Source: Tangfeifania diversioriginum (lineage in GTDB: Bacteria > Bacteroidota > Bacteroidia > Bacteroidales > Prolixibacteraceae). Taken from it: DNA of 57,234 nt. The notes beneath the pieces are model-generated. The model was not told the origin of the DNA, searched no databases, and saw only the letters and a program-made list of their open reading frames with translations. Both the position numbers and the translations under genes were made by a program. The stretch lies in NCBI GenBank assembly GCA_945873105.1, contig CAMCBW010000036.1:1-57234 (forward strand). The letters are read 5' to 3'. Below, one piece after another: positions 1,635 to 54,588 of the stretch (its first letter is position 1; the number at the start of each line of letters is the position of its first letter).

Positions 1635-1832
1635 AATGTGAAAATTGGAAAATTGGAAAATGTGAAAATGACTGTGGAAATTGGGAAATGTGAAAATGTG
1701 AAAATTGGCAGGGTGAGTGGATGAAAATTAGATACAAAAAAGAGATTGTAGTCCTTAAGCAACATGATAAGAGCGTTCTTCATTTTCACATTTTCACATT
1801 TTCCAATTTTCCAATTTTCCAATTTCCACATT
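1635..1832. repeat. Inverted arrays of degenerate 8-mers (AATGTGAA / AATTGGAA), trpD-trpG gap
   Basis: The left arm 1635-1709 is built of AATGTGAA and AATTGGAA units. The right arm 1781-1832 is the same array in inverted orientation. The unique loop between them is about 70 bp. The right arm ends 2 bases from the trpG stop codon. The inner flank of the right arm, GATAAGAGCGTTCTTCATT (about 1767-1785), recurs inverted beside the left arm of the 4118-4262 element, so the two loci are copies of one repeat family. Confidence 0.85.
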
Positions 1833-1834
1833 AT

Positions 1835-2401
1835 TCAGCTTTCCAGCCAATTCTTCATGATCGTCGCGCCTTCCGGGGTTAGCACCGATTCAGGATGGAA
1901 CTGAACCCCGCGCACGTCGTAGCGCTTGTGGCGCAGGGCCATGATTTCGCCCGAATCGTCGAGGGCGGTGACCTCCAGGCAATCGGGAAAGCCGGCTGGA
2001 CTCACTGCCCACGAGTGGTAGCGCCCGGCTTCGAAACTGTTACCCATCCCCCCGAAGAGGAGCTCATCGGTAGTGATGTTGATCTGGGAGGCAACGCCAT
2101 GGTGCACCTCCTTTAAATTGACCAGTTCTGCACCATACACCTCGCCAATGGCCTGGTGTCCGAGGCAGACCCCCAGGATGCTTTTCGTTGCGCCTAATCG
2201 TTTGACGATGTCCAGCAGCAAACCTGCCTCCGAAGGGATTCCCGGACCCGGACTCAGCAAAATTTTGTCATAGGCAGCTGCCTCATCCAAGGTAATTTCG
2301 TCATTTCTGCGCACATCGACCTCATAACCCAGCGACAGGATCAGGTGCACCAGGTTGTAGGTGAAGGAGTCGTAGTTGTCTATCAGTAATATCTTTTTCA
2401 T
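1835..2401 (-). CDS. trpG: Anthranilate synthase component II (glutamine amidotransferase)
   Basis: 188 residues, a complete class I glutamine amidotransferase. It hydrolyses glutamine and channels ammonia to TrpE for anthranilate synthesis. The catalytic triad is visible: Cys79 in GVCLGHQAIG, and His169 with Glu171 in FHPESVLTPEG. The oxyanion loop LLSPGPGIPSEAG is at about 48-60. It could also serve 4-amino-4-deoxychorismate synthase, as dual-use TrpG/PabA proteins do, but its place directly downstream of trpE points to tryptophan synthesis. The stop codon (1835-1837) is followed after 2 bases by a repeat array. Confidence 0.96.
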   Translation of the reverse strand: MKKILLIDNYDSFTYNLVHLILSLGYEVDVRRNDEITLDEAAAYDKILLSPGPGIPSEAGLLLDIVKRLGATKSILGVCLGHQAIGEVYGAELVNLKEVHHGVASQINITTDELLFGGMGNSFEAGRYHSWAVSPAGFPDCLEVTALDDSGEIMALRHKRYDVRGVQFHPESVLTPEGATIMKNWLES

Positions 2402-2662
2402 TTTAGTTGGTGTTTTTAGAATTATTACACAGAGGTTTATTTCTATTAATCAAAAAATCTGTGTTTATAATCATTTCTGCTATTATCTGCTTTTCAAGAG
2501 AGAAACCCCGGAGTTGCACAGAGTGAAAATCGCTTGCGATTTTCTGGCTCTGAGTACTCCTTTTTTCTCTTGTAAATTTTTTCATCAGGCGAAAATATTT
2601 AAGATGATTTAACTTTCAATGTAGTGTAGAAAATCCTCTGTGTAAGAATTCTAACCTGATTC
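2402..2662. repeat. trpG-trpE intergenic gap with hairpin repeat
   Basis: No gene is seen in these 261 bp. A perfect palindrome GAAAATCGC-TT-GCGATTTTC (2525-2544) lies beside CACAGAG (2517-2523), with further ACACAGAG copies near 2426 and 2635. It belongs to the same family as the 436-474 element in the trpC-trpD gap. The gap is long for genes of one operon. Confidence 0.65.
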
Positions 2663-4078: not shown

Positions 4079-4117
4079 ATTGTAGTTGTTTTCGTTTTTA
4101 ATTGTGTGAATACCAAT

Positions 4118-4262
4118 AATGTGAAAATTGGAAAATGTGGAAATGTGAAAATGAAGAACGCTCTTATCTTGATTTCCATCGACTCCAATCTCATTTTTTA
4201 TCTCTTATTGCTCATCTCTTTCCTTTAATTTTCACATTTTCACATTTCCCAATTTTCACATT
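4118..4262. repeat. Inverted 8-mer arrays, trpE-trpB gap; contains the trpB stop codon
   Basis: The left arm 4118-4153 (AATGTGAAAATTGGAAAATG and so on) and the inverted right arm 4229-4262 surround about 75 bp of unique sequence. The trpB stop codon (TGA, 4256-4258) lies inside the right arm, so the last codon and stop of trpB are written in repeat sequence. The left arm continues into GAAGAACGCTCTTATC, the inverse of the tag beside the 1781-1832 arm. Confidence 0.85.
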
Positions 4263-5452
4263 GCGTTGATAAAGGTATCCATGTCCTTATCCCCTCTTCC
4301 CGATAGGGTTAAAACCACTACATCGGTTGGTTGAAAATTCACTTTGGCGAGGGCACCAATGGCGTGGGCCGATTCAAGCGCAGGGATAATCCCTTCGAGG
4401 CGGGTCAGTTCGAAGGCAGCCGCAAGGGCTTCGTCGTCGTCGACCGCCAGGATGGTGGCCCGTTTGGTGACGGCCAGGTTGGCATGCATGGGGCCGATAC
4501 CGGGATAGTCGAGTCCGGCAGAGATGGAATAGGGCTCTTCGATCTGGCCATCCTCGCTCTGCATTACCAGTGATTTGGTGCCATGGAGGATGCCGACTTT
4601 GCCCAGCTGGATGGTGGCGGCACTCTCTCCGGAGTTGATGCCGTGCCCCCCGGCTTCTGCCAGCACGATCTTCACCCGCTGGTCGTCGAGGTGGTGGAAA
4701 ATGGTGCCTGCCGCATTGCTGCCCCCACCCACGCAGGCGATAAGGTAGTCGGGGTAGTCGCGCCCCTCCTTGACCAGCAGCTGTTTTTTAATTTCGGCAC
4801 CGATGACCGATTGCAGCCTTGCCACCATATCGGGATAGGGGTGCGGTCCGACCGTGGAGCCGATGATGTAATAGGTGTTGGCGGGGTTGCAGCACCAGTC
4901 ACGGATCGCCTCGTTGGTGGCATCCTTGAGGGTCATGTTGCCGGAGGTAACCGGAACGACGGTGGCACCCAGCATCTTCATTTTTTGCACATTGATGTGC
5001 TGGCGTTCAACGTCGGTCTTGCCCATGTAGACGATGCACTCCATGTCCATCAGGGCACAGACGGTGGCTGTAGCCACTCCGTGCTGACCGGCACCCGTCT
5101 CGGCGATGATCCTGGTCTTTCCCATCTTGCGGGCCAGCAGGATCTGACCAATGGTGTTGTTGATCTTGTGGGCCCCGGTGTGGTTGAGGTCCTCCCGCTT
5201 GAGGTAGATCCTGCAGCCATACTTTTCGCTCAGTCTTTTGGCCAGGTAGAGCGGGGAGGGGCGACCCACGTAGTCCTGTAGCAGCTGGTCGAATTCTGCT
5301 TTGAATTCTTCGCTTTCGATGACCGACCGATAGGTGTTCTGCAATTCTGTCACGCAGCGGTGCAGGATTTCGGGAATATAGGCTCCGCCGAATTCGCCGT
5401 AGTAGCCGTTTTTGTCTGCCTGGTAGGTGTTCATATTGATCGTATTTTTCAT
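4256..5452 (-). CDS. trpB: Tryptophan synthase beta chain
   Basis: 398 residues, full length. It condenses indole with L-serine in a PLP-dependent reaction, in complex with TrpA. The PLP lysine is Lys96 in [14 protein letters not shown], the phosphate-binding glycine loop is VGGGSNAAG at about 236-244, and [12 protein letters not shown] at about 118-129 is the indole and serine site with the conserved Glu. A second in-frame ATG at 5434 ([20 protein letters not shown]) is also a plausible start, and relatives begin near there. It is the first structural gene of the operon, 237 bp downstream of the leader peptide stop. The final codons lie in a repeat arm. Confidence 0.97.
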
Positions 5453-5477
5453 TATTTTCTTTAGAATACCATTTGTT

Positions 5478-5590: not shown

Positions 5591-5611
5591 TATCAACTCT
5601 TTGTTTTCAAC

Positions 5612-5645: not shown

Positions 5646-5688
5646 TCTTGTATATTTTATCTTTTGGGTAAATAGAGGTACTGCTTCC

Positions 5689-12205: not shown

Positions 12206-12748
12206 ATGGAAAACTTAATCCTCTCATTTGAACGCATCCAGTCGGCTTCACACCGGATACTGGATGTGGTACTGCCACTCTACAGTGAAGCATTTCCTCC
12301 GGAGGAGCGCCGTACCACGAGTGATTTGTTGCGAATGCTGCAGCAGAAGGAGATGTTTTTTTCAGCCATTCTGTTGGAGGAACAGGTGGTTGGATTGATT
12401 GTCTACTGGCGTTTTGGTGGGTTTAACTACCTGGAGCACCTGGCTGTTTTGCCCTCCAGACGCAAGCAGGGGATTGGGGAGATGGTGCTGAAAGAGCTTC
12501 AGAAGGAGGGGGCGCCAATCTTGCTGGAGGTGGAAATCCCCCACGATGACGATAGCACACGCAGGGTGACCTTCTATCACCGGATGGGATTCAGTGCATT
12601 GCCGGTATATTACCATCAGCCGCCCTACAGAAAGGGGGATACGGTTGTACCCATGATGCTCTTTTCGGACAAGAACGACTGGGATCCGGAAATACTGCAA
12701 GTATCGACTGAACTATTCCAGAACAGGGTCTATTATAAAAATAATTAA
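12206..12748 (+). CDS. GNAT-family N-acetyltransferase
   Basis: 180 residues. The acetyl-CoA binding motif A is visible as YLEHLAVLPSRRKQGIGEMVLKEL at about residues 74-97 (R/Q-x-x-G-x-G/A type), preceded by a beta strand with VVGLIVYWRF and followed by ILLEVEIPHDDDSTRRVTFYHRMGF, where the FYxxxGF ending is typical of the fold. These enzymes transfer acetyl groups to amines, and the substrate is unknown. It follows the ChaN-like gene by 61 bp. A repeat array begins immediately after its stop codon. Confidence 0.85.
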   Translation: MENLILSFERIQSASHRILDVVLPLYSEAFPPEERRTTSDLLRMLQQKEMFFSAILLEEQVVGLIVYWRFGGFNYLEHLAVLPSRRKQGIGEMVLKELQKEGAPILLEVEIPHDDDSTRRVTFYHRMGFSALPVYYHQPPYRKGDTVVPMMLFSDKNDWDPEILQVSTELFQNRVYYKNN

Positions 12749-12800
12749 GAGTAAAGGCTTAAGAATAAAGGATAAAGGCTAAAGTTTAAAGGCTAAAGTG
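12749..12800. repeat. Left arm of heptamer array (TAAAGGN) after the GNAT gene
   Basis: Units such as GTAAAGG, ATAAAGG, CTAAAGT and TTAAAGG run directly from the GNAT stop codon (12746-12748). They are the reverse complement of the TTTATCC array at 13321-13432, so the two arrays form inverted arms around the four-helix-bundle gene. Confidence 0.8.
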
Positions 12801-12826
12801 GAGGACTCCCATGATTCAGCCTTTTA

Positions 12827-13195
12827 TTAAAATTTTCTTGAAGTAGATGTTTTCGTGCAAATACTTCCAAGGATATTTTTCAATTCGACAGACTCATACT
12901 TGAGTTGGATCCAATCCTGATTTTTTTCGGTGGTTGCAATAATAAGTCTTATCCAATAATTGGATTCTCTCATCTCTTTCAGTGCTATACCTGTTTTGTT
13001 TGAGAAATCAGCTCTGGAAACAGCTCCCTGGGCTTCCTCATAATTGGCACCCACTGAAGAAGCTGATTTTAGTATCTGCCAGCTTATAACTTCATATTCT
13101 TTTCCTTTTGGGAGTTTTCTCACTGATTTAATTGTATTTACAGCAAAGTTGAACAATCTCTCCTGAAGATCATTCTTAAATGTGGAATCAATCAT
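12827..13195 (-). CDS. Four-helix-bundle protein (S23 / 23S rRNA intervening-sequence protein family)
   Basis: 122 residues, typical length. ILKSASSVGANYEEAQGAVSRADFSNKTGIALKEMRES at about residues 47-85 matches the family core (helix, then S-x-P/G-A-N-x-x-E, then helix). The protein should form a pentamer-like four-helix bundle. Homologues are encoded inside intervening sequences of 23S rRNA, and the fold is shared with Avd of diversity-generating retroelements, but the cellular role of free-standing copies is not established. No reverse transcriptase or variable repeat is present here. The gene is enclosed by inverted heptamer arrays at 12749-12800 and 13321-13432, the best evidence that it is cargo of a repeat element. 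Confidence 0.9.
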   Translation of the reverse strand: MIDSTFKNDLQERLFNFAVNTIKSVRKLPKGKEYEVISWQILKSASSVGANYEEAQGAVSRADFSNKTGIALKEMRESNYWIRLIIATTEKNQDWIQLKYESVELKNILGSICTKTSTSRKF

Positions 13196-13320
13196 AATTT
13201 GGCAATTAATTTTCTATATAAGTTACTGAAAATTATTTAAATAACCAAATTTCTCGCTTAAAATTTTCCGGAATTTATTTTAACCCAAATGCAACCAATT
13301 TTCCATAACACAAATCTAAC

Positions 13321-13432
13321 TTTATCCTTTATCCTTTATCCTTTATCCTTTATCCTTTATCCTTTATCCTTTATCCTTTATCCTTTAGCCTTTAACCTTT
13401 ATCCTTTAGCCTTTAACCTTTATCCTTTAACC
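13321..13432. repeat. Heptamer array, 16 units of TTTATCC and variants; contains the hydE stop
   Basis: Nine perfect tandem copies of TTTATCC (13321-13383) are followed by seven variant units (TTTAGCC, TTTAACC, TTTATCC and so on) to 13432. The hydE stop codon (13420-13422) and its last codons are inside the array. Nine perfect copies next to degenerate ones suggest recent slippage expansion at one end. Confidence 0.95.
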
Positions 13433-14505
13433 TTCTTGCCAAAGTGCTTGGAGTCACCCCATTCACCATAGCCAATCTCGCTGTCGGTCAGTGCCAGCCT
13501 TGCATCCAGGCAACCGGCACATTGTTCCGGCTCCTCATCGGTGCAGGGTTTGTTGTTGTAAAGCAGGTAGTTGTTCCGGTAGTTGCCCGGTGTAATGTTG
13601 GGCATGATGATGTTGGCACCTGCCTTCACTGCCTTTTCCCTGCCCAAAGGGTCAATGGCCTGCAGTGCGGTGGTGGCGGCAATGTTGATGTCGGGCATCA
13701 TCAGGCGAAGAATGGCTACCATTTTCAGGGAGAGGTTGAACCTTTCAGCCAAGGTAGGTGCATCACGCAGCGGATTTCCGAAGGGGGTATCCTCGTGTTC
13801 GATGAAGGGTCCCATTCCGACCATATCGATGTCAAAGGTTTTGAAAAACAGCAAATCATTGGCCAGGTCTGCGAAAGTCTGGCCGGGTGATCCGATCATG
13901 ACGCCTGTTCCAGTCTGGTACCCGATTTTTTTCAAGGTCTTGAGTGCCTCCAGCCGTTGTTCAAAGGGGTGATGACCATCACTGGGGTGAAGCCGGCTGT
14001 AGAGTTCGGGGTTGCTGCTTTCGATGCGCAACAGGTAGCGGTGTGCTCCGGCTTCGAACCAGCGCCTGTAGGTGTCCTCTGTCTGCTCCCCCAGGGAGAG
14101 GGTAATGCCAAGTTGGTTGTTGCTCAGCTCTTTTATCTGAACAATCAATTGTTCAATCCTCGAGACAAACCGTTCGTTGGTAACCTCACCCGATTGCACA
14201 ACAATGGATCCAAATCTTTCCCGGTAGGCAAAACTTGCAGCTTCCAATACCTCTTCATCGGATAGATTGTAACGTGTTATCTTTTTGTTGGAGTTTCGGA
14301 TCCCGCAGTAGAGGCAATCCTTTTCACACACATTGGAGAGTTCAATGAGTCCTCTGAAATAGACCTTGTTGCCCACCCGCTTTAACTTTAGCTTCCCGGC
14401 CTTTTTCAAAATCAGGATGCCCTCTTCATCCGCTGCCTGAAGCAGGGTGATGAGGTTCTCCCGGGTGAACAATTTTTGACCGATGATCTCTGCAACCGTT
14501 ACCAT
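13420..14505 (-). CDS. hydE: [FeFe]-hydrogenase maturase HydE (radical SAM)
   Basis: 361 residues from the ATG at 14505. An ATG at 14568 in frame would leave only 13 bp to the divergent mnmA, so 14505 is preferred. The radical SAM cluster is C60-x3-C64-x2-C67 in SNVCEKDCLYCGIR, the HydE form. A C-terminal CX7CX2C (CTDEEPEQCAGC) matches the optional second cluster site known from Thermotoga HydE. HydE acts with HydG and HydF to build the diiron subcluster of [FeFe]-hydrogenase. None of those, nor hydA, is in this window. BioB and PylB are relatives, but the Cys spacing and the second cluster favour HydE. The last codons (KKVKG and stop) are encoded by the heptamer array. Confidence 0.88.
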   Translation of the reverse strand: MVTVAEIIGQKLFTRENLITLLQAADEEGILILKKAGKLKLKRVGNKVYFRGLIELSNVCEKDCLYCGIRNSNKKITRYNLSDEEVLEAASFAYRERFGSIVVQSGEVTNERFVSRIEQLIVQIKELSNNQLGITLSLGEQTEDTYRRWFEAGAHRYLLRIESSNPELYSRLHPSDGHHPFEQRLEALKTLKKIGYQTGTGVMIGSPGQTFADLANDLLFFKTFDIDMVGMGPFIEHEDTPFGNPLRDAPTLAERFNLSLKMVAILRLMMPDINIAATTALQAIDPLGREKAVKAGANIIMPNITPGNYRNNYLLYNNKPCTDEEPEQCAGCLDARLALTDSEIGYGEWGDSKHFGKKVKG

Positions 14506-14581: not shown

Positions 14582-15763
14582 ATGAAGAAGAAAGTTTGCA
14601 TAGGTCTTTCGGGCGGGGTTGATTCAAGCGTTGCCGCTTACCTGCTGAAGGAGCAGGGGTACGATGTTTTTGCCCTCTTTATGATCAACTGGAAGGAGAC
14701 AACGGGTACGCTTACCGCCGAGTGCACCTGGGAGGATGACGTCATCTTTGCCGAGATGACTGCCAAAAAGCTGGACATACCTTTTCATGTAGTTGATCTT
14801 TCTGATTTTTACCGTACGAGGGTGGTTGATTATATGTTTGCTGAGTACGAGAAGGGGCGTACTCCCAATCCTGATGTTTTGTGCAACAGGGAGATCAAAT
14901 TTGATATTTTCATGCAGAAGGCGCTTGAACTGGGGGCGGATTATGTGGCTACCGGCCATTACTGCAGGCGGGAAGTCTCCCAAATAAAAGGCATTGAGAC
15001 CTTCTCCCTCCTGGAGGGGCTTGATCCCAACAAGGATCAGAGCTATTTTCTGTGCCAGCTCAATCAGTACCAACTTTCCAAATCGCTCTTCCCGATAGGC
15101 CATCTGCTGAAGCCGGAGGTTCGGGAGATTGCCCGGAAACAGGGGCTGGTAACTGCCGAACGGAAGGATTCCCAGGGTATTTGTTTTGTAGGCAAGGTCG
15201 ATCTTCCGCTCTTCCTGCAACAGAAACTGGAACCAAAAAAGGGAAATGTGATATTAATACCGGCCGATTTTTCAGCCAAAAAGAAAATTTCAGACAGGAG
15301 CAAGGATAATTTGCCCAAATTGACTGCGCCATTTCCCTTCAAACCCTGGCAAGGAAGCATCATCGGAGAGCACAACGGTGCTCATTTTTACACCATCGGC
15401 CAACGCAAGGGGTTGAATATTGGTGGTTTTGTGGAGCCACTCTTCGTTTTGGCCATTGATGTGGTCAGGAACATTGTATACGTTGGGGAGGGGAAGGAGC
15501 ATCCCGGACTCTACCGACCCGGACTCTTCATCGAAAGGAATGAAATTCATTGGATTCGACCTGACAGGGCGTTGAACCCGGGCGAAGAGTTCAACTTCCT
15601 GGTAAGGATTCGTTACCGGCAACCGCTGGAAAAAGCAACCATGATCATGGCGGAGGAGGGCGCCTACTTTTTGTTCAGGGAGGAGCAGCGGGGGGTTACC
15701 TCCGGACAGTTTGCCACATGGTACGACGGGGAGGAGCTGGTGGGCTCGGGGGTGATTGCATAG
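14582..15763 (+). CDS. mnmA: tRNA-specific 2-thiouridylase MnmA
   Basis: 393 residues, slightly longer than the usual 360-380. It thiolates uridine-34 of tRNA-Lys, -Glu and -Gln using ATP and relayed sulfur. The PP-loop GLSGGVDSS is at residues 8-16. The two catalytic cysteines are visible, Cys101 in NPDVLCNREIKFD and Cys201 in DSQGICFVGKVDL. YVATGHY (about 121-127) and TIGQRKGLNIGG are further family marks. It is divergent from hydE with 76 bp between them. The stop codon lies within GCATAGGGCATGG, the first unit of a repeat array. Confidence 0.97.
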   Translation: MKKKVCIGLSGGVDSSVAAYLLKEQGYDVFALFMINWKETTGTLTAECTWEDDVIFAEMTAKKLDIPFHVVDLSDFYRTRVVDYMFAEYEKGRTPNPDVLCNREIKFDIFMQKALELGADYVATGHYCRREVSQIKGIETFSLLEGLDPNKDQSYFLCQLNQYQLSKSLFPIGHLLKPEVREIARKQGLVTAERKDSQGICFVGKVDLPLFLQQKLEPKKGNVILIPADFSAKKKISDRSKDNLPKLTAPFPFKPWQGSIIGEHNGAHFYTIGQRKGLNIGGFVEPLFVLAIDVVRNIVYVGEGKEHPGLYRPGLFIERNEIHWIRPDRALNPGEEFNFLVRIRYRQPLEKATMIMAEEGAYFLFREEQRGVTSGQFATWYDGEELVGSGVIA

Positions 15764-15798
15764 GGCATGGAGCATAGGGCATGGAGCATGTAGAAGGG
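15758..15798. repeat. Left arm, heptamer array GGGCATG / GAGCATA after mnmA
   Basis: Heptamers GGGCATG, GAGCATA, GGGCATG, GAGCATG overlap the mnmA stop codon (15761-15763). The inverted partner is at 15957-16010, with about 160 bp of unique sequence between that has no recognisable gene. Confidence 0.85.
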
Positions 15799-15956: not shown

Positions 15957-16010
15957 ACCCATGCTCTATGCCCTATGCTCTATGCTCCATGCTCTCTGCC
16001 CTCTGCTCTT
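15957..16010. repeat. Right arm, inverted heptamer array (CATGCTC / TATGCCC)
   Basis: CATGCTC, TATGCCC, TATGCTC, CATGCTC, TCTGCCC and TCTGCTC units run into the stop codon of the 16009 gene. Same family as 54537-54588. Confidence 0.85.
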
Positions 16011-16167
16011 AGGAGTGCCCCCCCACAATGATGCGCATAATCTTGAGGTTGAGTACCACAAATCGCCATGCCTGCCAGAGAATGTTTCCCCGCCAAAAGC
16101 GGGTTGATCTTGTGGGTAGTGGGGGATAGGATTCGTCGTAATATCCGCGGACTATATTTTTTGCCAT
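16009..16167 (-). CDS. 52-residue conserved-looking basic protein downstream of SQR-like gene
   Basis: The reading frame continues upstream to 16296, but that part translates repeat DNA (it includes FGFAQG and PSASLRDR, encoded by the GAGCGAAGCC repeat), so I choose the ATG at 16167. The product, beginning MAKNIVRGYYDESYPPLPTR, contains a central hydrophobic stretch (NILWQAWRFVVLNLKIMRII) that could be one membrane helix. It lies 147 bp downstream of the flavoprotein gene on the same strand. A small membrane subunit serving the flavoprotein is a reasonable guess, but I know no function. Confidence 0.65.
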   Translation of the reverse strand: MAKNIVRGYYDESYPPLPTRSTRFWRGNILWQAWRFVVLNLKIMRIIVGGHS

Positions 16168-16189: not shown

Positions 16190-16305
16190 TTAATTTTAAC
16201 CGGTCCCTGAGCGAAGCCGAAGGGGAAATGTTTGAAATGTTCTGGTAAGTGCCGGTCCCTGAGCGAAGCCGAAGGGTAACCCTTTAAACCCTTCAAACTT
16301 CCTTT
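16190..16305. repeat. Two tandem units carrying the 23-bp GGTCCCTGAGCGAAGCC repeat
   Basis: Two exact copies of a 23-mer (16202-16224 and 16254-16276; begins GGTCCCTGAG, ends GAAGCCGAAGGG) lie 52 bp apart, each preceded by TTTGAAATGTT. The same 23-mer occurs inverted at 57112 and 57171. The right end continues into AAACCCTTCAAAC, the nonamer family also seen near 29690 and 30740. Confidence 0.85.
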
Positions 16306-19219: not shown

Positions 19220-20131
19220 ATGAAAAAAGACAATATCCTGCAAACCATTGGAAATACTCCCCACGTTCGTATCAACCGCCTCTTTCCGCCAGATTATTCT
19301 GTATTCGTAAAACTTGAAAAGAGCAATCCCGGCGGAAGTATCAAGGATCGCATTGCCCTGGCCATGGTAGAAGATGCAGAGACAAGCGGAATACTAAAAA
19401 AAGGGAGTGTCATCATTGAACCAACCTCAGGAAATACCGGGATTGGGTTGGCCCTGGTCGCCGCAGTCAGGGGATATCGACTGATACTGACCATGCCTGA
19501 TTCCATGTCTGTGGAGCGGCGAAGCATTCTGACTGCCTATGGGGCTGAGCTGGAGCTAACTCCCAGGGAGTTCGGAATGAAGGGGGCAATAGCCAAGGCG
19601 CAGGAGCTGGCACAAAAGATTCAAAATTCCTGGATCCCAATGCAATTTGACAATCCTGCCAATATTGCGGCCCATGAGAACTTCACTGCCGCTGAGATAG
19701 TGGCAGACTTTCCGGATGGGATTGATTACCTGATCACCGGTGTTGGAACAGGTGGTCATATTTCAGGAGTTGCCAAAGTCCTCAAAAGGCATTTTCCGAA
19801 CTTGAAAGTCTTTGCGGTAGAGCCAGAAGCATCCCCGGTCATCAGCGGCGGAGCACCCGGGCCTCATCCCATTCAAGGGATCGGGGCAGGTTTTGTTCCG
19901 GGTAACCTGAAGGTCGAACTCCTGGATGGAGTCATACAGGTAGGGAAAAGTGAAGCATTTGAGTATACCAACCGTGCTGCCAGGGAAGAGGGATTGTTTG
20001 TCGGCATCTCTTCAGGAGCCTCTTTGGCTGCTGTAGCCAAAAAGTTGCCTGAAATCCCAAAAGGTTCAACGATCCTGTCATTTGTATACGACAGTGGGGA
20101 GAAATACCTCTCGATTGAAGGACTCTTTTAA
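19220..20131 (+). CDS. cysK: Cysteine synthase (O-acetylserine sulfhydrylase)
   Basis: 303 residues, the usual length. The PLP lysine is Lys42 in [16 protein letters not shown], and the phosphate and substrate loop [11 protein letters not shown] starts at residue 68. [16 protein letters not shown] at about 176 binds the PLP phosphate. It forms cysteine from O-acetylserine and sulfide. The CysK and CysM branches are hard to separate; the [22 protein letters not shown] region favours CysK-like enzymes. It is convergent with the rlmD-like gene, and the gap between them is entirely an inverted repeat starting at the last base of the stop codon. Confidence 0.93.
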
Positions 20132-20226
20132 ATGTGAAAATTGGAAAATGTGGAAATGTGAAAATGATCGCATTGTACTAATGCCGTCCTAATTTCCACA
20201 TTTCCACATTTTCCAATTTCCAAATT
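20131..20226. repeat. Inverted 8-mer arrays filling the cysK / rlmD convergent gap
   Basis: The left arm 20131-20166 (AATGTGAAAATTGGAAAATG and on) and the inverted right arm 20191-20226 surround a 24-bp loop. The left arm starts on the last base of the cysK stop and the right arm includes two bases of the rlmD stop, so the element exactly fills the space between the two convergent genes. It would give a long hairpin in either transcript. Confidence 0.9.
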
Positions 20227-21680: not shown

Positions 21681-21856
21681 AAGGACTGAGGGACTAGGGG
21701 ACTGGGAGACTTAGGGAGTGGGTCTGATCAATATTTACTCTTCGATTACTGAATTTCCGTAATCCCTTCTGTTCTAAACGTCAGTCCCTCAGTCCCTAAG
21801 TCCCTAAGTCCCTAAGTCTCTTAGTCCTTTATTCCCCCAGTCCCTCAGTCCTTCCT
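21681..21856. repeat. Inverted octamer arrays (AGTCCCTA family) between rlmD and kdsC
   Basis: The left arm 21681-21720 (GGACTGAG, GGACTAGG, GGACTGGG, AGACTTAG, GGAGTG) and the inverted right arm 21782-21856 (repeated AGTCCCTA/AGTCCCTC) enclose about 60 bp of unique DNA. The right arm begins directly at the kdsC stop codon. Confidence 0.9.
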
Positions 21857-22385: not shown

Positions 22386-22407
22386 GAAAAAAGTTATGAA
22401 TTATGAG
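22386..22407. repeat. Short ATTATGAGTT repeat between kdsC and the DUF2520 gene
   Basis: GTTATGAATTATGAGTTATGAATG is a short piece of the ATAACTC/ATAACCC heptamer family (long copy at 52728-52816), placed right after the DUF2520 gene's stop. Confidence 0.55.
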
Positions 22408-23172
22408 TTATGAATGAAAATGTTGTATGTCGAGGCTAATGAGTTCATAGATTTTTTGCCATTTGGGATGTTGCTCCAGCATTTTTAAATGTAGATCCAA
22501 AATATTCTGATTGCCCCTGATGGCTGGTCCAGTTTGGACTGTAGCAGGGGAAAAGGCCATGGCTTTGTTGGCTGTTTCAAGAATTAAGGGTTTCAGAAGT
22601 CTGAAGTCAAGTTGTTGCTCCTGCAGTAGTTTTTCTCCAATGGTATAGAGGTGGTTGACAAAGTTGCAGACAAATACTGCTGCCAGATGAAGTTCCCTTC
22701 TTTGAACCGAGTTGACGGTGAAAACTTGTTCCGAAATGGTATGGGCCAGGAGGGATAGTTTCTCCAGGTTCTTGCCATTGTTGGCTTCCACACAGATTGG
22801 CACCTGGCTGAAATCAACGGTCTTATGTGCAGACAATGTTTGTAGTGGATAGAATACGCCGAAATTATCGGAAAATGCAGCAAGTATATCCATTTGAACA
22901 CTGCCTGAAGTGTGTACCAGCAAATGGTTTCGGATAGGTGCGTCCCGCAGAATTAGGGGGATAGCCTCTTCTGTAACTGCCAGAATATAGAGCTCTGCAT
23001 CCTGGATAATCTGAGATTTGTCGGTGGTCCAGGGGCAACCCATCAAATTGGCCAGGGTAGCCGTACCAGACAAGTTTCGGCCATAAACCTGAACAACTTC
23101 AGCGTTTTTGGCAAGAAGGGCCAAACCCAGTTGGGTGGCCAAATTTCCGGTACCAAGCAATACGATGCGCAT
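22408..23172 (-). CDS. Rossmann-fold and DUF2520 domain protein
   Basis: 254 residues. An N-terminal NAD(P)-binding fold begins MRIVLLGTGNLATQLGLAL with GTGNLA at 7-12, as in F420-dependent oxidoreductases and pyrroline carboxylate reductase. The C-terminal half (about 125-250), with RRELHLAAVFVCNFVNHLYTIGEKLL, matches the DUF2520 helical domain, where the conserved HxxAVFxxN motif is seen. The reaction is unknown. Position directly upstream of kdsC is a recurrent arrangement in Bacteroidota, but it does not by itself define a function. Confidence 0.88.
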   Translation of the reverse strand: MRIVLLGTGNLATQLGLALLAKNAEVVQVYGRNLSGTATLANLMGCPWTTDKSQIIQDAELYILAVTEEAIPLILRDAPIRNHLLVHTSGSVQMDILAAFSDNFGVFYPLQTLSAHKTVDFSQVPICVEANNGKNLEKLSLLAHTISEQVFTVNSVQRRELHLAAVFVCNFVNHLYTIGEKLLQEQQLDFRLLKPLILETANKAMAFSPATVQTGPAIRGNQNILDLHLKMLEQHPKWQKIYELISLDIQHFHS

Positions 23173-25995: not shown

Positions 25996-26044
25996 CCAAA
26001 CAAATCTATTATTTCAATGAAATAATATTATTTGGAATTATTAT

Positions 26045-26077
26045 AAAAAAGGAGTCTTTAGGGACTCCTTTTTTTCT
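26045..26077 (+). terminator. Intrinsic terminator after ppdK
   Basis: AAAGGAGTC (26048-26056) and GACTCCTTT (26063-26071) pair around a 6-nt loop, followed by a T-run to 26075. It is 50 bp beyond the ppdK stop. Confidence 0.9.
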
Positions 26078-26098
26078 ATGTTTCGATTGGTTTTTTCT

Positions 26099-26106
26099 TA
26101 TTTTTG
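26099..26106 (+). promoter_or_regulatory. Candidate -7 element for ccsBA
   Basis: TATTTTTG, 28 nt before the ATG at 26135 and just after the ppdK terminator. The -33 half is not clear. Confidence 0.4.
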
Positions 26107-26134
26107 CCAACATATTTAACTATAAATATATGTT

Positions 26135-28825: not shown

Positions 28826-28827
28826 AT

Positions 28828-28872
28828 AAACCCATAACTCATAACTCATAATTTATAACTCATAATTTTCCT
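28828..28872. repeat. ATAACTC heptamer array after ccsBA
   Basis: Units ATAACCC, ATAACTC, ATAACTC, ATAATTT, ATAACTC, ATAATTT start 2 bases after the ccsBA stop and end just before the start of the lipoprotein gene. Confidence 0.8.
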
Positions 28873-28875
28873 ATC

Positions 28876-29595: not shown

Positions 29596-29626
29596 AATTT
29601 CCTGGTAAGTGGCTTTTGTGTTATTG

Positions 29627-29698
29627 TTTGAAGGGTTTGAAAAGTTTGGAGGGTTTATAATGTTATGGCAAATCCAAACTTTTCAAACCCTTCAAACA
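29627..29698. repeat. Perfect 25-bp inverted repeat of GTTTGAAGG-type units
   Basis: GTTTGAAGGGTTTGAAAAG plus TTTGGA forms a 25-bp arm perfectly repeated in inverse, with a 22-bp loop. The arms consist of the same AAACCCTTC units that lie at 30706-30750 on the far side of the KilA-N gene. Confidence 0.9.
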
Positions 29699-30650: not shown

Positions 30651-30705
30651 TGTAAAGCCATTTGCTACCGATGCTGATTTGCAATTGGTACCTTTAACCC
30701 AAACA

Positions 30706-30783
30706 TTCTAAACCCTCCAAACCCTCCAAACCCTTCAAACCCTCCAAACATTTTCTATTTCCCAGGCGTCATAAGCGTCTCCC
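30706..30783. repeat. Right nonamer array and right copy of 50-bp direct repeat
   Basis: AAACCCTCC / AAACCCTTC nonamers (about 30706-30750) run into the stop codon of the S9 peptidase gene (30755-30757). 30734-30783 is the right copy of the direct repeat whose left copy is 29681-29730. Confidence 0.85.
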
Positions 30784-33572: not shown

Positions 33573-33791
33573 AATAGAGGCTGTCACAAAAGTCACGATG
33601 AAATTCCGTGATCTTACAATTTGCAAGTCTTTCTCTTTTTTCACCCCTAAATCCCCTAAAGTGGACTTGGAAATGCGTGAAATGGTCAGAATTTAAGCCC
33701 CTTCAGGGGTTTGGGGTCTGATCAGATTGGAAATTACTATCAAATTGTAAGCTGTAGAAATTTATTTTTGACTTTTGAGACAGCCTCTATT
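33573..33791. mobile_element. MITE-like element with AATAGAGGCTGTC ends
   Basis: About 219 bp bounded by 23-bp terminal inverted repeats (AATAGAGGCTGTC then A or T then CAAAAGTCA; one mismatch). It has no coding capacity. GAGGCTGTCTCAAAAG-type ends are known from Bacteroidota insertion sequences (IS1182-like), so it could be mobilised in trans by such a transposase, which is absent here. The interior contains ACCCCTAAATCCCCTAAAG and AGCCCCTTCAGGGG repeats. A target duplication cannot be separated from the AT ends. Confidence 0.8.
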
Positions 33792-33811: not shown

Positions 33812-35230
33812 TTATTTTGTGACAAATTCATGGATTTTCATCGCAGCATCCCTGCCCGAGCGGATGGCATGCACCACCAGGCTTGCCCCACGGGTTGCAT
33901 CACCGGCCACAAAAATCTTGTCCACGTTGGTGGCAAAATTGCTGGCTTTTACATTGCCGCGCGCATCGTATTCGACTTTCAGGTTATCCAGCAATCCTTC
34001 ATGGATGGGAGACACAAATCCAAGTGACAACATCACCAAGTCTGCCTCGATGATCTCTTCCGTACCCGGAATCTCCCTCATGGTCATTTGACCGTTTTTG
34101 CCGGTCCACTCCACTTTTACAACTTCAACTGCTGTTAAAACACCATCAACCCCAATAAACCTCCGTGTATTCAGGGACCAGCGTCTTTCACAACCTTCGA
34201 GGTGGGAGCTGGAGGTACGCAGGGTGTTGGGCCAGTAGGGCCATGGATTGTCTTCAGACCTTTTGTCAGAGGGCTTATCCAATATTTCAATCTGGGTAAC
34301 CGAATGGGCTTTTTGACGGATGGCAGTACCGACGCAATCGGATCCGGTATCCCCGCCGCCAATCACCAGCACTTTTTTGTCCTTGGCATGTATCCGCGTA
34401 GCCTCAGGAATATTCTCCCCTTTCACCACCTTGTTTTGTTGCTTGAGGTAATCCATGGCAAAATAGATTCCCTTCAGCTCCCGACCGGGAGTCGATTTCA
34501 GGTCGCGGGGTTGCATGGCACCGACGGCAATACAGACGGCATCAAACTCTTCCAGGAGTTTCTTCTCCGAAATATTTTCACCTACTTTCATGTTGGGTTT
34601 AAAAATGACCCCCTCTTTGGCGAAAATATCCAGCCTTCTGTCAATAATTCCTTTGTTTAATTTAAAATCAGGAATCCCATAACGCAGCAGACCTCCTATT
34701 TCATTGTCCTGTTCGAAGACCGTAACGGTATGACCAGACTGGTTGAGCAGATCAGCAGCGGAGAGTCCCGCCGGTCCGGATCCGATCACTGCCACCTCTT
34801 TGCCGCTTCTTTTCTGCGGAATGTTGGGGTGTACCAGATTCAGGTCAAAAGCATGTTCAACCACCGATGCCTCATTTTCGCGTATGGTGACCGATTCATC
34901 GTGAATGGCCAGCACACAGGATTTTTCGCAGGGTGCAGGACAGACTCTGCCTGTAAACTCCGGAAAGCTGTTGGTTTTGGTCAGAATGCTGTATGCCTGG
35001 TCCCATTTCCCGTGGTAGACAGCATCCTGCCACTCCGGAATGTTGCTTCCTACCGGACAGGCCCAGTGGCAGAATGGAACACCGCAATCCATGCACCTGG
35101 AGGCCTGGTTGATGCGATCCTGTTCATCCAATGTCTGCTCAACCTCTCCAAAATCACCAATTCGCTCACTAACCGGACGGTAACCGCCCAATTTCTTTTC
35201 TATCTCTATAAAACCCTTCGGATTTCCCAT
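33812..35230 (-). CDS. gltD: Glutamate synthase, small (beta) subunit
   Basis: 472 residues, full length. The N-terminal Fe-S region has CMDCGVPFCHWACPVGSNIP (about 41-60) and GRVCPAPCEKSCVL. The FAD fold is VAVIGSGPAGLSAADLL, and the NADPH fold is VLVIGGGDTGSDCVGTA. FVAGDATRGASLVVHAIRSGRDAA is the C-terminal FAD motif. It supplies electrons from NADPH to GltB for making glutamate from glutamine and 2-oxoglutarate. It lies downstream of gltB on the same strand, 134 bp away, with a heptamer array in between. Confidence 0.97.
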   Translation of the reverse strand: MGNPKGFIEIEKKLGGYRPVSERIGDFGEVEQTLDEQDRINQASRCMDCGVPFCHWACPVGSNIPEWQDAVYHGKWDQAYSILTKTNSFPEFTGRVCPAPCEKSCVLAIHDESVTIRENEASVVEHAFDLNLVHPNIPQKRSGKEVAVIGSGPAGLSAADLLNQSGHTVTVFEQDNEIGGLLRYGIPDFKLNKGIIDRRLDIFAKEGVIFKPNMKVGENISEKKLLEEFDAVCIAVGAMQPRDLKSTPGRELKGIYFAMDYLKQQNKVVKGENIPEATRIHAKDKKVLVIGGGDTGSDCVGTAIRQKAHSVTQIEILDKPSDKRSEDNPWPYWPNTLRTSSSHLEGCERRWSLNTRRFIGVDGVLTAVEVVKVEWTGKNGQMTMREIPGTEEIIEADLVMLSLGFVSPIHEGLLDNLKVEYDARGNVKASNFATNVDKIFVAGDATRGASLVVHAIRSGRDAAMKIHEFVTK

Positions 35231-35285
35231 TTTGCTTGTAGTTTAATCTCAAATTCAGCGAAGCTTCTGGCCTTTAACCACCTGC

Positions 35286-35355
35286 TTTAACCTTTAACCT
35301 TTAACCTTTATCCTTTAACCTTTATCCTTTATCCTTTAACCTTTATCCTTTATCC
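35286..35355. repeat. Heptamer array, ten units of TTTAACC/TTTATCC, between gltB and gltD
   Basis: Ten heptamers, 35286-35355, ending 9 bases from the gltB stop codon. Same family as 13321-13432. It lies inside the gltB-gltD transcription unit, so it is transcribed. Confidence 0.95.
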
Positions 35356-35364
35356 TTCCTCTCC

Positions 35365-51801: not shown

Positions 51802-51903
51802 CAGAAAGCATTTTACAATTAAGGTACAAAAGTAACAATTTCCGCGGTGTTACAGAAGTTCTAATTTTGCGTATTCAGTAGGGATTGAACCCCCAAACTT
51901 TCC

Positions 51904-51911
51904 TAAATTTG
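51904..51911 (+). promoter_or_regulatory. Candidate -7 element for mqnA
   Basis: TAAATTTG fits TAnnTTTG, 16 nt before the ATG at 51928. A TTG lies 16 bp upstream of it, which is closer than ideal. Confidence 0.4.
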
Positions 51912-51927
51912 GGCACAAAGTATTACC

Positions 51928-52677
51928 ATGACCAAAATTAAAGTATCTGCCATTACCTACTTGAATACCAAGCCATTCTTGTATGGAATCACCCACAATG
52001 ACCTTTCGGATCTCATCGAACTATCCCTGGATGTTCCTGCTGTCTGCGCTGATAAACTGAAGGCAGGAACCGTAGATTTGGGTATTATTCCTGTAGCAGA
52101 GATTCCGGAGATACCGGGAGCCAAGATCATAACCGACTATTGCATTGCATGTTCAGGGAAGGTTAGGACTGTTGTGATGGCCAGTATGGTTCCACTTGAA
52201 GAGGTGAAGAAGATTGTTCTGGACTACCAGTCCCGCACCTCTGTTCAATTGGTAAAGATCCTGGCCAGGGATTACTGGAGAATTGAGCCGGAGTGGCAAA
52301 ACGGAGGTTCCAATTATATCAGGGACGATCTCAATGGCACTACGGCTGGTGTCATTATTGGAGACCGTGTTTTCGAAGCTGAAAAACAGTTTCCATATCT
52401 TTATGATTTGGGTGATGCCTGGAAGCAGCATACCGGACTCGACTTTGTATTTGCCTGCTGGGTTGCCAATAAACCCTTGGAGAAGGATTTCATTGACCGG
52501 TTCGAGCTGGCCCTCCGCGATGGTATCCTGCATATACCAGAGGTGATCGCAGAGTACCAGCTCAGATATCCTGATTATCCCTTTGAAGCCTACTTTAGGG
52601 AAAATATTTTTTACCACTTGGATGATTCGAAAAGGAAGGGAATGGAGTTGTTCCTGAGTTTAATAGGAAGTGACTAA
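51928..52677 (+). CDS. mqnA: Chorismate dehydratase MqnA (futalosine menaquinone pathway)
   Basis: 249 residues. The N-terminus KVSAITYLNTKPFLYGI, the LKAGTVDLGIIPVAEIPEIPG segment and LDYQSRTSVQLVKIL are characteristic of MqnA. It is a periplasmic-binding-protein fold adapted to convert chorismate to 3-enolpyruvyl-benzoate, the first step of the futalosine route to menaquinone. MqnD is related, but the SYLNT-like start and the Ser-rich motif favour MqnA. Other mqn genes are not in the window. A short AGTGCCTA-type repeat starts directly at the stop codon. Confidence 0.9.
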   Translation: MTKIKVSAITYLNTKPFLYGITHNDLSDLIELSLDVPAVCADKLKAGTVDLGIIPVAEIPEIPGAKIITDYCIACSGKVRTVVMASMVPLEEVKKIVLDYQSRTSVQLVKILARDYWRIEPEWQNGGSNYIRDDLNGTTAGVIIGDRVFEAEKQFPYLYDLGDAWKQHTGLDFVFACWVANKPLEKDFIDRFELALRDGILHIPEVIAEYQLRYPDYPFEAYFRENIFYHLDDSKRKGMELFLSLIGSD

Positions 52678-52816
52678 AGTGCCTAGAGTGAGCTAAGGTG
52701 CCTAAAGTACTTATGTTCTTATCTTTATTAACTCATAACCCATAACCCATAACCCATAACTCATAACCCATAACCCATAACCCATAACTCATAACCCATA
52801 ACCCATAACTCATAAC
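52678..52816. repeat. Repeats between mqnA and fluC: AGTGCCTA units then ATAACCC heptamers
   Basis: 52675-52710 has AAGTGCCTAGAGTGAGC and similar units beginning at the mqnA stop. 52731-52816 is a dozen heptamers of ATAACCC or ATAACTC. They occupy the whole gap up to the fluC leader. Confidence 0.9.
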
Positions 52817-52835
52817 TTTTTTACTATCTTCGTTC

Positions 52836-53213
52836 ATGCTTAAAACAATATTCGTTGTTGGTGCCGGTAGTTTTATGGGAGGTGTTGCCAGATATCTCAC
52901 CACCAGGTTGGTACAAAACAGTGTGGTCTCCACTTTCCCTTTTGGTACCATGGTGGTCAATTTGCTGGGATGTTTGCTGATCGGTCTGATTTTTGGAATT
53001 TCGGAAAGGACCAATCTGATCAATGATGAATGGCGTCTCTTTTTAACGGTTGGATTTTGCGGAGGATTCACCACATTTTCGGCTTTTGCCAATGAAAATG
53101 TCGTATTGTTGAGGGATGGGAACTTCTACTTTTTTGCCCTTTACACCGGATTGAGTGTTTTTCTAGGACTTATCGCGGTCTTTTTGGGGCATGCCCTCAC
53201 CAAACTATTATAA
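52836..53213 (+). CDS. fluC: Fluoride channel FluC (CrcB)
   Basis: 125 residues with four membrane helices. GAGSFMGGVARYLTTRL at the N-terminus, VNLLGCLLIGLIFG and GFCGGFTTFSAFANE are the FluC signatures, including the Phe-box and the FTTFS segment that lines the pore with Na binding. It forms an antiparallel dimer that exports fluoride. The upstream gap is repeat DNA and shows no fluoride riboswitch. Confidence 0.95.
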   Translation: MLKTIFVVGAGSFMGGVARYLTTRLVQNSVVSTFPFGTMVVNLLGCLLIGLIFGISERTNLINDEWRLFLTVGFCGGFTTFSAFANENVVLLRDGNFYFFALYTGLSVFLGLIAVFLGHALTKLL

Positions 53214-53352
53214 TTTGACTTGGATTTATCAACCATATCTTCCGCCAGGAGGAAATGGCTGATTTGTTAAAAAATGTTCCGATTGTCCAAAGTATCCCAA
53301 AGAGCTAAACCTGTCACTTGGTTTTTCGTAAAAGAAGCCAAAGAAAACAGTC

Positions 53353-54531
53353 ATGATGAACATAAAATTGTTTTATACATTGTTGGTTGCGCTGTTGGGC
53401 GTAGCACTTACCTTCACAATTTTCGGATTTTCTGACACCAATATCCGCGGTTCGAGCAATGACAGTCACTCCTCAACCCCTTCAATCCATTCAAATTCTT
53501 CCACAATTACAAATATCCCAATGATGAATTCCACCGACCCTAAGAAACCAGGCAATCCCTATTATTCCAGAACTAACCAGGAGAAGTTAAACATTACGGA
53601 TAGTGAGTGGAAACGTGTGCTGCCCCGTGATTTGTATGAAGTGTCCAGAAATAAGGGGACGGAGCGCTCTTTTACGGGCAAATACTGGGAGTTCACGGGT
53701 AAAGGAACCTACTATTGTGCCGCCTGTGGCTTCCGGTTATTCCGGTCAGATGCAAAATTTGCCAGTGAATGCGGATGGCCCAGCTTTTTTGAGCAAATAG
53801 ATCCCACTAGTGTCACTTTTCATGAAGACCATAGCTTTGGAATGAACCGGACTGAGGCACTGTGCGGGCGATGCGGAGGCCACCTTGGCCACCTATTCGA
53901 CGATGGTCCTCTTCCTACCGGGAAGCGCTATTGCATGAATTCAGTTGCACTGGACTTCGAACCAGATCAAAATGGTGCAATGACCTCCAAAAATTTGGCG
54001 TCGGATACCATTACACTGGGTGGAGGTTGCTTCTGGTGCATCGAGGCCATTTACAAGAGTCTGAAAGGTGTTCAATCCGTTACTTCAGGATATGCAGGAG
54101 GCAAGATGGCCAATCCAACCTACCGGGAAGTCTGCAGCGGATTGACCGGGCATGCAGAAGTTGTTCAATTGGTATTTGATCCGCAAGTCACCAGTACAGA
54201 GGAGATTTTGAAAGTATTTTTCACAGTGCATGATCCTACAACCCTTAACAGGCAGGGGGCTGATGTAGGTACCCAGTATCGGTCAGTTATATTTTTTCAG
54301 AACAAGCAACAACAGGAGATTGCCAATCAGTTGATTGATGCACTCAACAAAGCTAAGGTTTTTGATCGGCCCATTGTTACCATTGTAGAGCCCGAGCCTG
54401 AATTTTATCCGGCAGAAGATTATCACAAGGAATATTACAGCCTGCACAAGAATGAACCCTATTGCCGCATGGTGATACAACCCAAAGTGGAGAAATTTGA
54501 GAAAATTTTCAAAGATAGGATCAGAAAATAG
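53353..54531 (+). CDS. msrBA: Exported MsrB-MsrA methionine sulfoxide reductase fusion
   Basis: 392 residues. An N-terminal hydrophobic helix (about 5-26) is followed by a Ser/Thr-rich linker, so the enzyme is exported or membrane-anchored. The MsrB domain comes first (about 72-205), with Zn ligands Cys122, Cys125, Cys171 and Cys174 and catalytic Cys194 in YCMNSVALDF. The MsrA domain follows (about 218-380), with catalytic Cys226 in GGGCFWCIEAIYK and GYAGG. It repairs both R and S methionine sulfoxides in envelope proteins. The B-before-A order is the reverse of PilB-type fusions. A start at the second ATG is possible. Confidence 0.95.
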   Translation: MMNIKLFYTLLVALLGVALTFTIFGFSDTNIRGSSNDSHSSTPSIHSNSSTITNIPMMNSTDPKKPGNPYYSRTNQEKLNITDSEWKRVLPRDLYEVSRNKGTERSFTGKYWEFTGKGTYYCAACGFRLFRSDAKFASECGWPSFFEQIDPTSVTFHEDHSFGMNRTEALCGRCGGHLGHLFDDGPLPTGKRYCMNSVALDFEPDQNGAMTSKNLASDTITLGGGCFWCIEAIYKSLKGVQSVTSGYAGGKMANPTYREVCSGLTGHAEVVQLVFDPQVTSTEEILKVFFTVHDPTTLNRQGADVGTQYRSVIFFQNKQQQEIANQLIDALNKAKVFDRPIVTIVEPEPEFYPAEDYHKEYYSLHKNEPYCRMVIQPKVEKFEKIFKDRIRK

Positions 54532-54536
54532 CAAGG

Positions 54537-54588
54537 AGCATGGGGCAGAGGGCATGGGGTAAAGAGCATGGAGCAGAGGGCATGGAGT
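54537..54588. repeat. Heptamer array (GAGCATG / GGGCAGA / GGGCATG) after msrBA
   Basis: Seven heptamers starting about 6 bases after the msrBA stop. Same family as 15758-15798 and 15957-16010. No inverted partner follows here. Confidence 0.9.

Follow-up and report, generated by a model that had tools for sequence, protein, structure and literature searches.

Why do short tandem repeats of unrelated sequence lie at the ends of so many genes? The question is raised by a 57,234-nt contig (CAMCBW010000036.1; C36), called the window below, one of the 99 contigs in the 5.36-Mb assembly GCA_945873105.1 of Tangfeifania diversioriginum (Bacteroidota, Prolixibacteraceae). The named records nearest to the window are uncultured freshwater or sediment Bacteroidia, followed at a greater distance by Prolixibacteraceae (Sunxiuqinia, Tangfeifania). 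An earlier note on this DNA described degenerate arrays of 7-9-bp units, from several unrelated sequence families, that begin at or inside stop codons, and it proposed insertion targeted to 3' ends or arrays that supply stops. We found the common placement of the unrelated families to be real, and we found a feature that goes beyond the note, which is that roughly half of the arrays occur in inverted pairs. The explanation we favor, with a probability of about 0.5, is that small hairpin modules have dispersed through the genome and persist at gene 3' ends, whether by preference or by tolerance, and that many of the arrays are their arms.

Arrays at stop codons

Arrays were called with Tandem Repeats Finder (TRF) and genes with a home-made caller based on a hexamer model. 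From 856 kb of the genome (a first sample of 457 kb and a second of 399 kb) we had 199 intergenic TRF arrays, and 181 were counted after we dropped 18 that had other periods or had no gene on one side. Real intergenic DNA (94,273 bases) held 173 arrays, against 7-12 in five Markov shuffles. The second sample was partly picked at matches to the AATGTGAA family, so we also give separate statistics for the first sample and for the window.

Within 10 bp of a stop we found 86 of the 181 arrays, when 44.4 ± 5.0 were expected from uniform positions within the same gap (maximum 63 in 2000 draws). The samples taken separately gave 37 of 83 against 20.7 expected (first) and 49 of 98 against 23.8 (second), and co-directional gaps on their own gave 48 of 114 against 21.3. 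In the window, 14 of 22 arrays lie within 10 bp of or over a stop against 6.7 ± 1.7 expected, a count that omits an open reading frame (ORF) of 52 residues and includes a weak array in a 22-bp gap (22394-22415). Counted from the genes, 14 stops of the window have the edge of a 7-9-bp-unit array within 15 bp, and 13 of them within 10 bp. Gene starts in the 856 kb have no excess of arrays (19 against 22.1 expected); some starts are bordered by arrays all the same, since roughly half of the arrays occur in inverted pairs. The earlier claim that arrays sit at or in many stop codons, more often than random placement would put them there, therefore holds.

Among gaps of at least 40 bp, an array is present in 36 of 60 convergent, 84 of 307 co-directional and 9 of 76 divergent ones. 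This avoidance of divergent gaps could equally be purifying selection against hits to promoters, rather than targeting.

The gene calls carry two known errors. The hexamer caller overlooked the 52-residue ORF (16009-16167), and a second gene-call run contained one likely false gene (4106-4228), which hides the array at 4118-4153 from the 856-kb statistics. NCBIfam confirmed the names of nine products (TrpD, TrpG, TrpB, HydE, MnmA, CysK, RlmD, KdsC and MsrBA); of the names in the earlier note, GNAT, ccsBA, S9 peptidase, gltB and mqnA were not confirmed.

Inverted pairs with a single strand polarity

The 181 arrays form 45 pairs of inverted neighbors. When we listed the orientation of neighboring arrays within one gap, with unclassed arrays oriented by G-C count, G..C occurred 45 times and C..G never, with three CC and two GG cases. 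In all 45 pairs the G-rich strand points inwards from the gap edges (top strand at the left, bottom strand at the right). Both arms belong to the same family in 32 of the 39 fully classed pairs, against a permuted mean of 7.6 (maximum 18 in 5000).

The inward rule extends beyond the pairs. Among 139 arrays of named families 124 follow it and 15 do not, with 42 more arrays unclassed; scored by G-C count, 132 are concordant and 20 are not (29 of 181 unscored). In terms of genes, the coding strand is the G-rich one at stops, and the antisense strand is the G-rich one before starts. As the families are few, the independent evidence for polarity amounts to about nine families and not to 139 arrays.

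Stop codons and protein tails

As the earlier note had suggested, arms provide genes with their stops; they also provide C-terminal tails. In the 856-kb sample, 44 stops are overlapped by arrays, and at 41 of them the G-rich strand is the sense strand; the likely false gene at 4106-4228 may explain one of the three C-rich overlaps. Our list of the 37 convergent gaps with arrays has 12 in which arrays come to within 7 bp of both stops, and the same false gene makes one of these entries false (window 4228-4256). In one of the same-genus genomes compared below (G007), a 121-bp element makes both stops of a convergent pair, and the same gap is 11 bp long in another (G003).

The protein tails follow the arrays. 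HydE ends in KKVKG, KKDKG or KKEKG where a TAAAGG-type array covers its stop (the window species, G002 and G007), and its tails differ in G001, G003, G005 and G006, all without a TAAAGG-type array on the stop. The product of 51928-52677, which has no NCBIfam match at E<=1e-10, ends in GSD, supplied by a AAGTGACTAA arm, whereas its G006 counterpart ends in IKDKG, supplied by a TAAAGG arm.

In seven of nine families, more reading frames are closed by the G-rich strand than by its complement. We rejected stop supply as the sole cause of the polarity, because ATTTTGG arms close almost no frames on either strand (means of 0.10 and 0.20 of 3) yet obey the rule (9/10).

Unit order and inner cores

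A rival explanation is that each array grew in place by replication slippage from chance 7-9-bp duplications and is only tolerated near stops. Degenerate tandem units, very long arrays such as the one at 13320-13434 and the relaxed sequence past stops all agree with such growth. The arms of the AATGTGAA family do not. Read from outside to inside, the usual arm is GTG-TTGG-GTG-GTG, and this order is common to different loci. We have 39 such arms, with a modal length of four units (19/39), and in the 29 that are short and unbroken the TTGG unit is second in 20, against 6.5 when the order was shuffled (maximum 14 in 5000). By eye, AAGTGCCTA arms also have mostly about four units, with an AAAGT end and often one 10-bp unit within.

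Sequence inside the pairs is shared as well. The core GAAGAACGCTCNNATCNTGATT has 74 matches (<=3 mismatches) in eight genomes of the genus and its backwards pattern has none; a looser scan (<=5 mismatches) gave 16 matches against 2 for the reversed pattern. In the fetched loci there are 34 distinct matches, and 24 have an arm within the 34 bases before them, of the TAAAGG family in 16 cases and of the AATGTGAA family in 8. The other 10 have no preceding arm, and several of these are apparently chance matches in coding sequence. One inner core is thus common to arms of two families. In addition, ATCGCRTTGTACNAATGC (<=3 mismatches) forms the loop in AATGTGAA pairs at three sites of this genome and in four other species. 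A universal core across families is unsupported, since the most enriched 7-mers in all 139 inner flanks (GGACTCC and TTCAAAC, 7/139 each) reach a count that shuffles also reach.

The unit order, the cores common to loci and families, and the pairing of same-family inverted arms of one polarity all disfavor independent local slippage as the sole source, and the earlier note, too, held that slippage alone would not put arrays at gene ends. We consider it quite improbable.

The same gaps in related species

We compared the window with seven same-genus genomes (G001-G007) whose RlmD proteins are 80-86% identical. Among orthologous gaps, both sides have an array in 25, the window alone in 21, the relative alone in 7 and neither in 42. 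A relative therefore has an array in 25 of the 46 gaps where the window has one, against 7 of the 49 where it does not (Fisher p 6.6e-5), with the reservation that the species are not mutually independent and some arrays are weak or unclassed. In the 25 gaps with an array in both, the family is the same in 8 and different in 11 of the 19 that could be classed, with 6 unclassed; the family pattern used here merges AATTTGAA with AATGTGAA.

The same gaps in sister species thus carry different families. Between cysK and rlmD there are AATGTGAA pairs in the window species, G002 and G004, the related AATTTGAA form in G005, AATTCGAC in G007 and GGAATGAAG in G001. Between rlmD and kdsC the family is GGACTGAG in the window species and ATTTTGG in G004, G005 and G007, and there is no array in G006 or G001. 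The comparison of orthologous gaps that the earlier note had proposed did not give clean insertion points, as the intergenic DNA is too diverged.

We counted 129 matches to a four-unit AATGTGAA arm in this genome (overlapping ones in long arrays counted separately) against 1 in 394 other genomes of the phylum, and a backwards control gave six matches in two other genomes and none in this one. For a TAAAGG arm the counts were 254 in this genome and 12 across six others of the phylum. These phylum samples contain five genomes of the same order and no other genome of the genus or family. A count of inverted array pairs across genomes found 38 in the 856 kb sampled here. The seven same-genus genomes have 11 in 242 kb (three of them have no pairs, in stretches of 11-18 kb), 11 same-family genomes have 0 in 306 kb, and 9 same-order genomes have a single, AT-rich one in 142 kb. 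Among 80 named loci, pairs were present in one of the same genus (L184), and one pair was present in Parabacteroides faecalis (L202). In viral contigs the AATGTGAA arm had no match and the AAGTGCCTA arm was in one contig. A AAGTGCCTA-family array lies at 4318-4378 of a 5-kb IMG/VR contig of unknown host (L278).

Folding and terminators

Could the hairpins come first, selected as bidirectional terminators or as stabilizers of mRNA 3' ends, so that only the fold and the polarity matter? Placement at 3' ends, the avoidance of divergent gaps and the single polarity across all families are what one would expect. Under a simple rule, canonical intrinsic terminators are present in 1 of 81 co-directional gaps with an array against 24 of 216 without (p 0.004), and in 7 of 36 convergent gaps with an array against 10 of 23 without (p 0.076). 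In RNA folding, two matched AATGTGAA pairs had z scores of -9.0 and -7.2, and a GGACTGAG pair, clipped by the length limit, had -2.2. According to PMC4692102, transcripts of Xanthomonas start or stop more commonly at G4-forming repeats than at control repeats.

Other observations do not fit a selected hairpin. Some of the same gaps are array-free in same-genus species (11 bp in G003, 17-33 bp in G006), about half of the arrays are unpaired, the mismatched pair at 52664-52810 gave z +0.3 and no hairpin, and the arms of the largest family show no likeness within a locus. By eye, we saw no regular T-run behind the pairs. In a search of the window with Rfam 15 at gathering scores, the matches were two tRNAs and, 5' of the trp genes, the Bacteroidete tryptophan peptide leader (RF01692; 5638-5771, minus strand), and the arrays match no model. 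A role in termination or at the 3' end would fit the folding and the partial exclusion of canonical terminators, but it is unproven, as arrays are missing from the corresponding gap of several relatives. We think that function as the origin of the arrays is possible though doubtful.

The gap at 25996-26134 has a canonical intrinsic terminator (AAGGAGTC..GGGACTCC and a T-run) that is kept in four species, without arrays except for one unclassed array in G007.

G-quadruplex motifs

Four G-tracts per arm might instead be the selected feature, with the arrays as G-quadruplex (G4) elements, as has been discussed for GGGNATC repeats. The G-rich strand rule and the four-unit mode agree with what PMC4692102 describes in its account of those repeats, and most arms of two families contain a two-tetrad motif (GACTGAGG 11/13, TAAAGG 13/15). 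The units here differ from the quadruplex-capable GGGNATC type. A two-tetrad motif occurs in 42 of the 139 named-family arms (0/27 in the AAGTGCCTA family) and a three-tetrad motif in 11. Since most arms have no motif, the quadruplex is not a common feature of the class, and 85 of the 97 arms without one still obey the polarity. We rejected it as a general cause, which we regard as very improbable; it could still apply to some families.

Y1 transposases

The genome has six Y1 transposase genes, and a further rival is elements like REPINs, which are inverted pairs of repetitive extragenic palindromic (REP) sequences, moved by a Y1 transposase of the REP-associated tyrosine transposase (RAYT) type. 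Inverted pairs of short extragenic sequences, hairpins and many copies are in keeping with this. At one locus (L006) a Y1 gene (1501-1842) is bracketed by inverted two-unit 9-bp arrays, with ACCTTATTT before its start (1466-1484) and CAATAAGGT over its stop (1918-1935), in the general polarity. At another (L004), inverted 8-bp arrays, CACCAAGA and CTTGGTGA at 2790-2811 and 2858-2880, lie about 950 bp from a Y1 gene. However, the L004 pair, which is outside the 856-kb pair sample, has the opposite polarity (C-rich left, G-rich right), and the named families are not beside any of the six Y1 genes. Y1 genes are also about equally frequent in same-family genomes that have no array pairs in the sampled 18-40 kb, though the Y1 counts of relatives are uninformative. 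A Y1-type mover is possible but unproven, and we judge the REPIN-like explanation improbable.

Proposed hairpin modules at gene ends

In the explanation that we favor, many of the arrays would be parts of small, dispersed, non-coding modules that fold as hairpins. Degenerate, G-rich units of 7-9 bp would make up one arm of a module, an inner spacer of about 5-170 bp would come next, and the other arm would be the reverse complement of the first. The spacer would sometimes contain a shared core. Arrays without a partner may be lone or decayed arms. The common unit order and cores suggest that modules are copied to new sites as ordered units. They would then persist at the least harmful place, which is the stop codon itself in convergent or co-directional gaps. 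There an arm can supply a new stop, as it does in several genes, and promoters are spared, divergent gaps seldom holding arrays. The RNA hairpin may replace a lost terminator. Repeated gain, decay and replacement at permissive 3' ends would leave different families in sister species.

Several observations weigh against this. About half of the arrays have no partner, and some neighboring arrays are of unlike families and do not fold together (52664-52810). Arms of the AATGTGAA family are no more alike within a locus than between loci (0.73 vs 0.75, p 0.75), and the likeness is weak for AAGTGCCTA (p 0.02) and absent for TAAAGG (3 pairs, p 0.16). Because arms of the same locus are barely more alike than others, there is little sign of compensatory hairpin evolution. 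The unit order was examined in the AATGTGAA family alone. Some arrays are long, with 17 units in one arm, so slippage also acts. The nine named families are absent within 1.5 kb of the six Y1 genes (by TRF; six of the nine also by pattern). In 32 same-family pairs we found no target-site duplication (mean 1.66 vs 1.58 permuted), so they do not show the duplicated ends of a miniature inverted-repeat transposable element (MITE); as the ends of the pairs were set by TRF, with a slack of 3 bases, this result may contain some error. The intergenic DNA of the compared species is too diverged for exact insertion points or clean empty-site alignment.

With no target-site duplication, no clean boundary and no proven enzyme, targeted insertion at gene ends, as the earlier note had proposed, is not demonstrated. 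That related species keep the place but often have another repeat sequence there hints at an uncharacterised element, one that either seeks gene ends or is tolerated there. If the arrays are indeed arms of such modules, the 'simple repeats' of the bacterial heptamer class are often hairpin arms and not slippage noise, and dispersed hairpins settle on stops, rewrite protein tails and may replace terminators. It would also weaken the view that G-quadruplex formation explains the class.

Arrays of the window

Distances from array edge to stop are given in brackets with a sign, negative where the array overlaps the stop or the last codons. TRF lists arrays with periods of 7, 8 and 9 where the earlier note had placed them. 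Four arrays (1635-1705, 4118-4153, 21683-21722 and 52729-52817) are closer to a start, as the second array of their gap.

The first pair has a AATGTGAA-family left arm at 1635-1705 (plus), 41 bp 5' of the trpD start, and a right arm of that family at 1781-1837 (minus) over the trpG stop at 1835 (-3). The inner spacer (1706-1780) has a core match on the minus strand that adjoins the right arm. The second pair is of the same family; its left arm of about four units (4118-4153, plus) has the core GAAGAACGCTCTTATCTTGATTT immediately behind it (4153-4175, plus), and its right arm (4228-4262, minus) provides the trpB stop at 4256 (-7), as ATG-TGA.

TAAAGG-family arrays lie at the stop of the gene 12206-12748 (12745-12798, plus; -4) and run into hydE (13320-13434, minus), where the array provides the tail KKVKG and the stop at 13420 (-15). 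In the gap between these genes (12749-13419) the G002 counterpart has, by eye, arrays at both ends of a reading frame, which G001 seems to share without arrays; the window has another short ORF there (12827-13195).

GCATGGG-family arms hold the mnmA stop at 15763 (15758-15790, plus; -6) and adjoin the stop at 16009 of the 52-residue ORF (15961-16009, minus; -1). Sequence similar to this ORF (16009-16167, minus; MAKNIVRGYYDESYPPL...) is present in the G001 and G003 counterparts of the gap. Nearby, at 16201-16224 and 16253-16276, is a dispersed palindrome-like sequence, CCCTTCGGCTTCGCTCAGGGACCG, which is also found at the contig end (57111-57234) within a 59-bp tandem repeat; other species of the genus have close forms of it in gaps that hold arrays.

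The AATGTGAA arm at 20130-20166 (plus) provides part of the cysK stop at 20131 (-2) and the one at 20192-20226 (minus) part of the rlmD stop at 20225 (-2). The loop between them (20167-20191) contains ATCGCATTGTACTAATGC, with similar forms at two more sites in the genome and in four other species. On the other side of rlmD, GGACTGAG-family arms lie at 21683-21722 (plus), 36 bp from the rlmD start, and at 21781-21851 (minus), 3 bp past the kdsC stop at 21855 (+3).

A TGGGTTA/TGAGTTA-family array (28829-28868, minus) almost fills the gap 28826-28875 beside the stop at 28825 (+3). It is followed by a GTTTGAAGG-family array (29626-29656, plus) 30 bp past the stop at 29595, a GTTTGGAGG-family array (30699-30749, minus) near the stop at 30755 (+5) and a TAAAGG-family array (35285-35357, minus) near the stop at 35365 (+7). 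An inverted repeat at 33573-33791, with 56-nt arms that are 79% complementary, 107 nt between them and the ends AATAGAGGCTGTC.../...GACAGCCTCTATT, resembles a MITE or the remnant of an insertion sequence (IS) and adjoins the stop of the gene 33812-35230.

The AAGTGCCTA-family arm at 52668-52708 (plus) provides the tail GSD and the stop at 52677 (-10) of the gene 51928-52677. Its neighbor at 52729-52817 (minus), 18 bp 5' of a start, is of another family, TGGGTTA. A last GCATGGG-family array (54538-54585, plus) begins past the msrBA stop at 54531 (+6), and we found no partner array for it.

Comparison with known repeats

The short tandemly repeated repetitive (STRR) sequences of cyanobacteria are degenerate heptanucleotide tandem arrays in intergenic DNA, several per genome. 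The arrays described here would resemble them in that general description, as the earlier note proposed. Several families here have 7-bp units and others units of 8 or 9 bp, and the arrays show an inverted-pair architecture.

As far as its account goes, PMC4679880 describes TAACTGA direct repeats in Beggiatoaceae, Cyanobacteria and five Bacteroidetes. They have one unit and lie mostly just 5' of starts, sometimes over an upstream stop, and the genome chiefly studied there has only a single indirect repeat. The TAACTCA/TAACCCA array that precedes the start at 52836 resembles them in sequence and place. Beyond these repeats (PMC4679880), we found no account of multi-family arrays of such kind in Bacteroidota in the open-licence literature that we searched. 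REPINs, as they are presented in the relevant part of PMC3116915, are likewise miniature dispersed inverted pairs that are extragenic and form hairpins. Their arms are single palindromic REPs near a RAYT; here the arms are tandem arrays of many families, and the named families are not beside Y1 genes (PMC3116915).

The closest likeness in architecture is to the GGGAATC and GGGGA(C/T)T heptamers of Xanthomonas and Nostoc. In the sections of PMC4692102 that deal with them, these heptamers prefer four units, lie within 50 bp of stops or overlap them, and have their G-rich sequence on the coding strand there but on the antisense strand ahead of starts. They form inverted pairs in convergent orientation and are rare between divergent genes. 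In the same sections Rehm et al. 2015 discuss G-quadruplexes for the repeats, with no function found, and the introduction mentions three Calothrix heptanucleotides (PMC4692102). Stop placement, strand polarity, inverted convergent pairs and the four-unit mode are all like those seen here. The system here differs in its number of families, at least nine with units of 7-9 bp within a single genome against one heptamer there, and further in that most arms are without a G4 motif, families are replaced between species and a core occurs in two families.

With several families at the same gene ends, one can separate the fixed features (place, polarity and geometry) from the free one, the sequence. 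It is tempting, and in our judgment rather unlikely, that a single process indifferent to sequence fixes the place at the stop, the G-rich-inwards geometry and the 7-9-bp unit, and leaves the unit sequence free, so that it can be exchanged entirely from one species to the next. Bacteroidota, Xanthomonas and Nostoc would then owe their common geometry to one mechanism, which might act on DNA exposed by transcription or on RNA at the ends of transcripts. Placement, polarity and pairing were already known for one heptamer of Xanthomonas and Nostoc, from the portions of PMC4692102 cited above; what is new is their multi-family form in Bacteroidota.

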